Assembly: GCF_000973085.1 (NCBI RefSeq)
Contig: NZ_CP011280.1
Location: 832,642 to 896,641 of the forward strand
Origin: Sneathia vaginalis
GTDB lineage: Bacteria > Fusobacteriota > Fusobacteriia > Fusobacteriales > Leptotrichiaceae
DNA: 64,000 nt
Direction: 5' to 3'
Notes under the pieces: model-generated
Database searches by the model: none
Seen by the model: the letters and a program-made list of their open reading frames with translations, nothing else
Told to the model about the DNA's origin: nothing
Position numbers and translations under genes: made by a program
Part shown: piece after piece, positions 1-51,461 of the stretch
Layout of the letters: every line of letters begins with the position of its first letter
Position numbering within the stretch: the stretch's first letter is position 1

Positions 1-389
1 TTTGGCAATACTGTATTATATATTTTTGCATTATTACCTATTGCTATTGCTTTTGCAGCATTATTTTCAACTACTGAACCATGCCCTATTGAAACTGAAT
101 CACTAGCATTTGCTTCAGATCCTAATCCTATTGCTATTGCATAATCTTTAACTACTTGATATTGTACTTTTGAATCATTTTCACCTTTAGGATTTAAAGC
201 TATTGATCCTTTATTAGTATTTTCGCTACCCCAACTTCCAATTTTTCCCTTTTCTATACTTATATTAGTAGCCATCCCTATACTATTACTCATCATAAAT
301 AGCACTATCAAACTCGTTGTTATCTTTACCTTCTTCTTTAAACTTCTTTTTAAATATCTTTTTACTTCTTCTATATTTATATTCTTCAT
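1..389 (-). CDS. YadA-like trimeric autotransporter, N-terminal part (runs off window)
   Basis: The ATG at 389 opens a frame that continues past the window edge. It begins with a long basic signal region (MKNINIEEVKRYLKRSLKKK, then a hydrophobic stretch ending SNSIGMA), which resembles the extended signal peptide of large autotransporters. The mature part shows YadA-head repeats of the form AIAIGLGSEANA, SVSIGHGSVVENNA and AIAIGNNAKI. Such proteins form trimers that are secreted through their own C-terminal barrel and display an adhesive head on the surface. The stop codon of the upstream 170-residue gene overlaps the start (ATGA), so translation is probably coupled and both genes share the promoter with a G9 tract at 964-993. 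Only about 129 residues are visible, so the stalk and anchor are inferred. Confidence 0.88.
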   Translation of the reverse strand, partial: MKNINIEEVKRYLKRSLKKKVKITTSLIVLFMMSNSIGMATNISIEKGKIGSWGSENTNKGSIALNPKGENDSKVQYQVVKDYAIAIGLGSEANASDSVSIGHGSVVENNAAKAIAIGNNAKIYNTVLP

Positions 390-898
390 TTGTTAATCAC
401 TCCTAAATAATCATAATTTGTTTTTTTCTTGTACTGTCTGTAGAACTTGTACTTGAAATAGTCTTGCTTATACAATGAGTTATCCTTAGTATCTGCTATG
501 AATCTTTCTGTTTCCTCATCATCTAGTGATACTAGTATTATCTGTACATTCTTTGGAAAGCTATTATCCTTTAATTCCTTTATACTTCTATTCTTTAATT
601 TATCATTCTTTTCTTTTAGTAAGAATACAAATATTTTCTCACCAAACTTACTTAATCTGTCTTTATTCTTTTCTAATACACTTACATCTGGTAATATTAC
701 TAAAAACTCATTAGATACTTTCCAATTTAGTTTCGATTGTGTTAAGAAATAGTCTGCAAACTCATAGTCTATACCCTGTAAGTCTACGTGTTTAGTACTT
801 TCTATTTCTTTAGTATAATATGCATAATTATCCAATGATCGTGATACTGTAATATTACTTAATATTACAAAAATCCATATTAAAATTCCTTTTTTCAT
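386..898 (-). CDS. Secreted 170-aa protein coupled to a TAA; unknown function
   Basis: I do not recognise the family. The protein starts with a short signal peptide (MKKGILIWIFVILSNITVSR) and the rest is a soluble, lysine-rich domain with no membrane segment. Its N-terminal third matches the decayed ORF at 1320-1637 (shared ESTKHVDL/EGTKHVDL, FADYFLTQ), so it is a duplicated element that travels with TAA genes. It lies directly upstream of a TAA and overlaps its start by ATGA. A periplasmic helper for autotransporter biogenesis, in the way SadB serves SadA in Salmonella, is a reasonable guess from position only; no sequence similarity to SadB is claimed. Transcription starts from a promoter containing a G9 spacer tract about 75 bases upstream. 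Confidence 0.75.
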   Translation of the reverse strand: MKKGILIWIFVILSNITVSRSLDNYAYYTKEIESTKHVDLQGIDYEFADYFLTQSKLNWKVSNEFLVILPDVSVLEKNKDRLSKFGEKIFVFLLKEKNDKLKNRSIKELKDNSFPKNVQIILVSLDDEETERFIADTKDNSLYKQDYFKYKFYRQYKKKTNYDYLGVINK

Positions 899-963
899 TT
901 AACCTCCATTTTTGTCTATTTTTTAATGTTTATATTATAAAGTAAATATTTGCGATCTCTATC

Positions 964-993
964 ATTTTAACACCCCCCCCCAATAAAAATCAA
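964..993 (-). promoter_or_regulatory. Promoter with G9 spacer tract for the 170-aa gene and TAA
   Basis: On the minus strand: -35 TTGATT (988-993), -10 TAAAAT (964-969), spacer 18 bases, of which nine are a pure G run (973-981 read as C on the plus strand). Gain or loss of one G would change the spacer to 17 or 19 and so change promoter strength, as known for porA of Neisseria meningitidis. Confidence 0.7.
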
Positions 994-1140: not shown

Positions 1141-1637
1141 CTAAAACTGCCTTTTTCTTACTTTTTCTTTTTTAACCTTTTCAGGATAATTATTTTCATT
1201 TTCTTCACCAAGCATAACTCCAGCTCCAACACCGAATGCAAGATTTCCCTTATTATTTACTGAACCACTTAATTTATATACAAAGTTACGTTCTTCATTA
1301 GTTCCACTAAATCCTACTGCTAATGTATGTTATCCTCCATAGTATCCATATGCTGTGAATATATTATGTCTATATCTTGAAACTCACTAGATACTTCCCT
1401 ATCTATTTTTAATTGTGTTAGGAAATAGTCTGCAAATTCAAAATCTACTGCATGTAAGTCTACGTGTTTAGTACCCTCTATTACATTTGTATAATATACA
1501 AAATTGTCTAAATTTTTTGCTAAAGTAATATTAGTCATTATTACTAAAAATGAAATTAAAAGCTTTTTAGTAGTTAAAAAATTAAAATGTTGTTTAATTC
1601 TATATAGTAGTTTAGATAATATCACTGTATTCTCCAT
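1141..1637 (-). pseudogene. Fused remnant of a paralogous helper gene and TAA anchor
   Basis: From ATG 1637 the frame reads a signal-bearing protein related to the 170-aa gene at 386-898 (LDNFVYYTNVIEGTKHVDL), then leaves the homology after about residue 85 and ends at 1320. From about 1362 down to a stop at 1141 another frame encodes a YadA anchor: TAYGYYGG, then an in-frame stop, then AVGFSGTNEERNFVYKLSGS and NLAFGVGAGVMLGEENE. The simplest reading is a deletion that removed the end of the helper gene and nearly all of the adhesin, joining them out of frame, plus a further nonsense mutation in the anchor. The promoter copy (TTGAAA 1719-1724, TAAAAT 1695-1700, spacer 18) lacks the G tract. 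A short secreted ORF may still be translated. Confidence 0.8.
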
Positions 1638-1762
1638 TTTTTCCTCCTTATTGTTATGCTTTTACTTGTTTTTGTTTAAAAAAACAACTTTTTTATTTTA
1701 TCATTTCTAGTCTAAAATTTTCAACTTTATTTTACATATATACCCATCTGTTATTTAACCAT

Positions 1763-41422: not shown

Positions 41423-41452
41423 AATATACACCCCCCCCCATAAATTTTTGAA
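41423..41452 (-). promoter_or_regulatory. Promoter with G9 spacer tract for the 834-aa TAA
   Basis: -35 TTCAAA (41447-41452), -10 TATATT (41423-41428), spacer 18 containing G9 (41431-41439 as C on the plus strand). Confidence 0.7.
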
Positions 41453-44291: not shown

Positions 44292-44319
44292 ATATTACCC
44301 CCCCCCATTTATTTTTCAA
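44292..44319 (-). promoter_or_regulatory. Promoter with G9 spacer tract for the 501-aa TAA
   Basis: -35 TTGAAA (44314-44319), -10 TAATAT (44292-44297), spacer 16 with G9 (44298-44306 as C on the plus strand) directly against the -10. Confidence 0.7.
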
Positions 44320-47932: not shown

Positions 47933-47962
47933 ATAGTACCCCCCCCCGTACTTTTTTGTCAA
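47933..47962 (-). promoter_or_regulatory. Promoter with G9 spacer tract for the 505-aa TAA
   Basis: Perfect -35 TTGACA (47957-47962); -10 either TACTAT (47933-47938, spacer 18) or TATATA (47930-47935, spacer 21). G9 lies at 47939-47947 as C on the plus strand. Confidence 0.65.
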
Positions 47963-51430: not shown

Positions 51431-51461
51431 ATTATAGCACCCCCCCCCCATTTATTTTCAA
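51431..51461 (-). promoter_or_regulatory. Promoter with G10 spacer tract for the 522-aa TAA
   Basis: -35 TTGAAA (51456-51461), -10 TATAAT (51431-51436), spacer 19 with G10 (51440-51449 as C on the plus strand). Loss of one or two G would give 18 or 17. Confidence 0.75.

Follow-up and report, generated by a model that had tools for sequence, protein, structure and literature searches.

Dedicated periplasmic partners are known for only a few trimeric autotransporter adhesins (TAAs), and the mechanism by which such partners act is still open (PMC8151025). SadB and TpgA are the precedents for accessory genes linked to TAAs (PMC8151025, PMC3953254). SadB, encoded in the sadBA operon of Salmonella, is a small exported protein whose gene lies directly upstream of that of an ESPR-containing TAA (PMC3953254, PMC8151025), and TpgA, from the ataA-tpgA operon of Acinetobacter, is a periplasmic partner co-transcribed with its TAA (PMC8151025). 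In Fusobacterium, the small exported proteins RapA, RapB and FAD-I are co-encoded with a large autotransporter in the radD operon (PMC7023056). Here we describe a gene of Sneathia vaginalis, hereafter the helper, whose product we regard, with the balance standing about even, as an exported and most likely periplasmic pseudo-hydrolase that would serve as a dedicated accessory to long ESPR-like TAAs.

The genome is a single contig of 1,330,224 bases, of which the window, i.e. the whole stretch of 64,000 nucleotides that was analysed, covers positions 832642-896641. At the beginning of the window, on the minus strand, an intact gene (386..898) identified by its ORF and translation, the family profile and dN/dS encodes a helper of 170 aa, with a hydrophobic, signal-peptide-like N-terminus, no cysteine and a degenerate alpha/beta-hydrolase-like domain in the remaining part. 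As a sequence-only reading of this DNA had claimed, the gene for this exported protein overlaps the start of a TAA by ATGA, in which the TGA stop of the helper meets the ATG of the TAA (386..389, minus strand), and the overlap is kept in relatives. A ribosome-binding-like site precedes the helper (GGAGG, 903..907, minus strand), and that of the TAA (AGGAG, 400..404, minus strand) is placed within the last codons of the helper and is also kept in the sister species. Only the 5' end of the partner TAA lies in the window (1..389, minus strand), as shown by its ORF and a YadA_head match, and comprises an extended, basic, ESPR-like signal peptide, MKNINIEEVKRYLKRSLKKKVKITTSLIVLFMMSNSIGMA, and the first of the YadA_head repeats that follow it; the E-value for YadA_head is 1.2e-4 for this piece and 7.6e-63 for the TAA frame of 2017 aa, which extends mostly past the window edge. 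After this frame the TAA goes on in two other frames, to a YadA_anchor and a coiled-coil-like tail. The frame changes are located outside the window, at L015:978-1006 and L073:16595-16700, and either the gene is broken in this assembly or these are assembly errors.

A second, decayed pair is found nearby, in agreement with the same reading, which had placed a decayed paralogue beside TAA anchor debris and taken the pairing to be duplicated. The N-terminal part of a truncated paralogous helper (1374..1637, minus strand), with a longer signal-peptide N-region, displays 57% identity over helper residues 3-67 and is cut off after about 65-70 matching residues. Straight after it, a remnant of a TAA anchor (1219..1356, genome positions 833860-833997, minus strand) matches YadA_anchor (PF03895, E 5.9e-6) with one internal stop, and a promoter-like site for the decayed pair, TTGAAA-18-TAAAAT, is found at 1695..1724 (minus strand). 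Together, the truncated helper and the anchor remnant support a duplication, and the decayed copy would correspond to a former helper-TAA pair with one internal deletion.

A total of 98 Fusobacteriota genomes were searched with a four-row profile and then with a nine-row profile. Fifteen helper copies were found in six genomes, all from the Sneathia/Streptobacillus group except one, which is more distant within the order: two copies in this genome, one of them decayed, two in G001, two and a contig-end fragment in G013, three in G014 (probably S. moniliformis), four in Streptobacillus notomytis AHL 370-1 (G022) and one in G038. Reading of the loci indicated that homologues do not occur mostly away from autotransporters, since all 15 copies adjoin a TAA. 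The expectation that every homologue would be located directly upstream of a TAA holds, on the same strand, for 14 of the 15, but not for the copy of G038, which is convergent with its TAA, the stops being 139 bp apart. Two G022 copies, placed at the ends of contig C255, each lead into a TAA-like start, and a stop interrupts one of the two. Helper and TAA overlap by 4-11 bp in the Sneathia-like pairs and in the two whole pairs of G013, and are separated by gaps of about 10-30 bp in Streptobacillus. Weak genome matches at L006, L010, L012 and L014 corresponded, on reading, to unrelated genes or frames with stops, and many matches obtained with A3 at E of about 0.001-0.01 were rejected, as they covered the signal peptide only. 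A pattern scan of genome contigs with the window protein gave no match, the same scan with a Streptobacillus copy returned S. notomytis alone, its reach beyond Fusobacteriota being limited, and no plasmid match was obtained.

A run of nine C at 973-981, which is G9 on the coding strand, is positioned 75 bp ahead of the helper ATG, inside the 18-nt spacer between the -35 and -10 hexamers of a promoter-like site, TTGATT-18-TAAAAT (964..993, minus strand). This site is a candidate phase-variable promoter for both the helper and the TAA. Likewise, in the pairs and TAAs scored, a tract of 8-12 G occupies a spacer of 15-21 nt that separates a TTGACA-like from a TATAAT-like hexamer, and such promoters precede most helper-TAA pairs and many helperless TAAs; the promoter-like sites of G001b and of the decayed copy lack the tract, and upstream of G013a there is a methyltransferase-like gene, the G tract being located still further upstream. 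Twelve of the 13 G/C runs of 8 or more in this genome are upstream of TAA genes, the single exception being a G9 at L101:1105-1113, inside a 615-aa ORF. Because these 12 tracts precede TAAs with or without a helper, the G tract belongs to TAAs in general and the helper has it in common with them, which rules out a helper-specific tract. The claim of a shared G-tract promoter stands as far as the promoter-like site ahead of helper and TAA is concerned, but the tract is not special to the pair. The genome-wide placement of the tracts suggests a phase-variable TAA repertoire, resembling the phase-variable surface genes of Neisseria and Campylobacter in having a G/C tract potentially able to change length, here between the -35 and -10 of TAA genes. 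Elsewhere in the window, G tracts of 9-10 at 41431-41439, 44298-44306, 47939-47947 and 51440-51449 are found ~26-36 bp upstream of TAA genes. At L091:7298-9873, behind a G9 tract, an exported ORF of 268 aa overlaps by 4 bases a following TAA that lacks a signal peptide of its own, the two being perhaps one split TAA. Among the open-access papers searched, those on Sneathia genomes, which do mention autotransporter adhesins, yielded no match to phase variation or homopolymers, and none combines Streptobacillus moniliformis with phase variation, an earlier report elsewhere being possible.

Several observations count against an accessory function, among them the convergent position of the G038 copy and the two frame breaks of the partner TAA in this assembly. 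Helpers are also a minority in the genomes that bear them, where most TAAs have none: YadA_anchor matches number 20 in this genome, which has one intact helper, 15 in G001, 12 in G013 and 24 in G014, which has three helpers. L090, a helperless TAA of this genome, has a signal peptide almost the same as that of the partner TAA. Moreover, the signal-peptide region of one G014 helper (L059:9598-10095) is disrupted where its frame breaks within AAAT-rich sequence, and the adjacent TAA is an open frame of 1813 aa. One helper acting on several TAAs in trans would reconcile the helperless TAAs and the loss of the signal peptide with an accessory function. The L059 locus also fits a dispensable accessory, and in this respect agrees with an alternative, which we consider unlikely, in which the helper itself is exposed at the surface or secreted, as a second component attached to the completed fibre or recognising a ligand on the host or on bacteria, the pair forming one adhesive unit and not a chaperone with its client. 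Adjacency and the shared promoter are equally compatible with such a component, and the small proteins of the radD operon of Fusobacterium have not been shown to be chaperones (PMC7023056). Nevertheless, the helpers carry only a Sec-type signal peptide and no outer-membrane, lipoprotein or secretion signal beyond it, 11 of 13 copies contain no cysteine, inspection of the N-termini reveals no lipobox, and the helper has no known ligand-binding domain.

The earlier reading had not recognised the family, and in fact no sequence match was found in Pfam, NCBIfam, PHROGs, PADLOC or PDB; a fold and an origin can be assigned all the same, with fair support, to a degenerate alpha/beta hydrolase. A weak Pfam match to Thioredoxin_8 (E 0.008) received no support from homologues, and PDB sequence matches to Toll-like receptor 3 (E 0.015) were judged due to chance. 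The weak distant matches of the helper profile fall in G023 and G006, on domains at the C-terminal end of filamentous-haemagglutinin-type (FHA-type) ORFs, the term FHA-type being our own reading of a long repeat-bearing ORF of G023 that no Pfam domain names. With this profile the two domains reach E 1.2e-10 and 6.3e-9, compared with 0.0057 for the best of 10,000 shuffled sequences, a test in which CutC-fused domains gave no score; a reverse search from the G023 domain recovers the helpers (best E 1.7e-6), and a profile-profile comparison of helper and FHA hydrolase domain in hhalign scores 95.7% (E 9.7e-9). Related to the FHA-type domains is an alpha/beta-hydrolase-like domain fused to CutC, found at L076:1372-2790 and L077:679-2121. 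These CutC-fused domains (G013, G004) retain IHGAG and GHSVGA, and one such relative matches LIDHydrolase (PF10230) at 3.6e-5, just under the curated cut-off. AlphaFold models of the G013 helper homologue (pLDDT 80.4, pTM 0.76) and of the FHA domain (pLDDT 74.2, pTM 0.76) have the same order of core strands and helices, the nucleophile serine of the latter falling between a strand and the next helix, and the best Foldseek matches of both are alpha/beta hydrolases, with weak E-values (best 0.035 and 0.007).

The predicted topology of the helper contains the core formed by strand, nucleophile elbow and helix, with alternating strands and helices after it. The full sheet with the N-terminal strands bearing an HG-type motif is absent: four strands are predicted, and the signal peptide and a linker replace the N-terminal half. 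The match is statistically strong for the last three strands and less so for the elbow. FHA-type and CutC-fused domains are homologous to the helper in the core, which begins at the helix of the nucleophile elbow and ends with the last strand, and keep GHSxGA, the acid (all but one) and the histidine, whereas the helper is truncated and exported alone, and Ser, acid and His are replaced in all aligned copies. The nucleophile motif GHSxGA corresponds to A(D/N)(I/V)xxAD or IDYEFAD, the acid motif GDRS to NRS/NRD (in one copy YRS), and no NH motif remains; the acid and histidine were assigned by conservation in four sequences, one of which has GNRS, and not from a known active site. A domain in an ORF of G028 (GYSMSAD), intermediate-like by eye, was left out for want of a clean alignment. 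Homology between the helper and the C-terminal alpha/beta-hydrolase domains of FHA-type proteins has fair support, the helper having apparently lost its N-terminal half along with each of the three catalytic positions. This loss bears on another alternative, to which we give little credit, that the helper is an active hydrolase with a non-standard active site, modifying the TAA, lipid or cell wall. The predicted models retain the fold core, and polar positions are conserved near the former active site (AD, PD, the R of NRS and N135 in A3 numbering), but none of the Ser, acid and His of hydrolase relatives is retained, and the helper also lacks the N-terminal strands with an IHGG-type motif.

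Ten pairwise comparisons of helpers gave dN/dS values of 0.15-0.48, the window helper and the sister species giving 0.15-0.17, and by this measure the helper gene is under purifying selection. Since dN/dS is 0.15-0.17 and the overlap is kept in relatives, the pairing is more than chance. By a rough classification of N-termini, an extended signal peptide is present in 10/10 scored helper-paired TAAs vs 11/23 helperless TAAs, after setting aside by hand partial, misclassified or contig-end-cut frames from the latter count, and the hypergeometric value of about 0.004 is descriptive, as the genes are related. The selection values weigh against the proposal that the helper is a leader or translation-control frame which brings ribosomes to the TAA start, its product being immaterial. 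This proposal would account for the ribosome-binding-like site of the TAA within the helper and for the tight overlap of the Sneathia-like pairs, but dN/dS remains at 0.15-0.48 with residues conserved across genera, and the protein is still kept in the spaced pairs of Streptobacillus, which makes it very improbable. That the helper is a decoy or immunity-like remnant tied to toxin-like FHA domains and travelling with adhesin loci, as its homology to the C-terminal domains of FHA-type proteins could suggest, is scarcely credible, considering that neither this genome nor G001 gave a match to such an FHA domain and that the link is always to TAAs and never to FHA loci.

Among the roles considered, a periplasmic assembly factor, as the sequence-only reading had suggested by way of example, is the likeliest for the helper. 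The protein probably descends from an alpha/beta-hydrolase domain such as that found at the C-terminus of FHA-type proteins in related genomes, and on the way would have shed its N-terminal half as well as the positions of Ser, acid and His; because of these losses, the helper is probably a binding protein and not an enzyme. One mRNA may carry both genes, the helper being translated first and the TAA by translational coupling, and the G tract in the spacer could allow the two to be switched on and off jointly. Once exported, the helper is expected to meet the TAA chain on the periplasmic side and, by analogy with SadB and TpgA, may aid its export, folding, trimerisation or stability. The complete scenario is somewhat more tentative than its outcome, and falls a little short of an even chance: an FHA-type hydrolase domain that lost catalysis and gained its own signal peptide would have become a dedicated periplasmic TAA helper, co-switched by a G-tract promoter and constituting a third structurally unrelated type after SadB and TpgA. 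If true, the helper family would add an unrelated fold to the partners of TAAs, and would do so in a phylum whose type V secretion has received little study; it would also clearly exemplify the recruitment of a pseudoenzyme to protein export. Both the helper and fragments of the TAA can be made as purified proteins, and therefore its role is directly testable.

Compared with the described systems, the radD operon differs in its adhesin, since RadD is autotransporter-like but of a different type; among its small proteins, RapA resembles FadA, whereas RapB and FAD-I are lipoproteins, which by their descriptions sets them apart from the helper. TpgA resembles the helper in its location and co-transcription, both putative in the case of the helper, and differs in binding peptidoglycan, whereas for an OmpA-like peptidoglycan-binding domain no Pfam match in the helper reaches the cut-off. 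In Streptobacillus, an OmpA domain is fused to the TAA itself, and a published genome of S. moniliformis carries such TAAs (PMC7549365); TAAs whose YadA anchor is followed by an OmpA domain were also observed here at L058, L109 and L113. SadB shares with the helper the position of its gene, found directly upstream of the TAA in 14 of the 15 copies, but SadB is a trimeric lipoprotein of the inner membrane whose C-domain is MATH-like, whereas the helper is not a lipoprotein with a lipobox cysteine and is predicted to adopt an alpha/beta fold. By analogy, we read the helper as filling a role similar to that of SadB and TpgA without being homologous to either.
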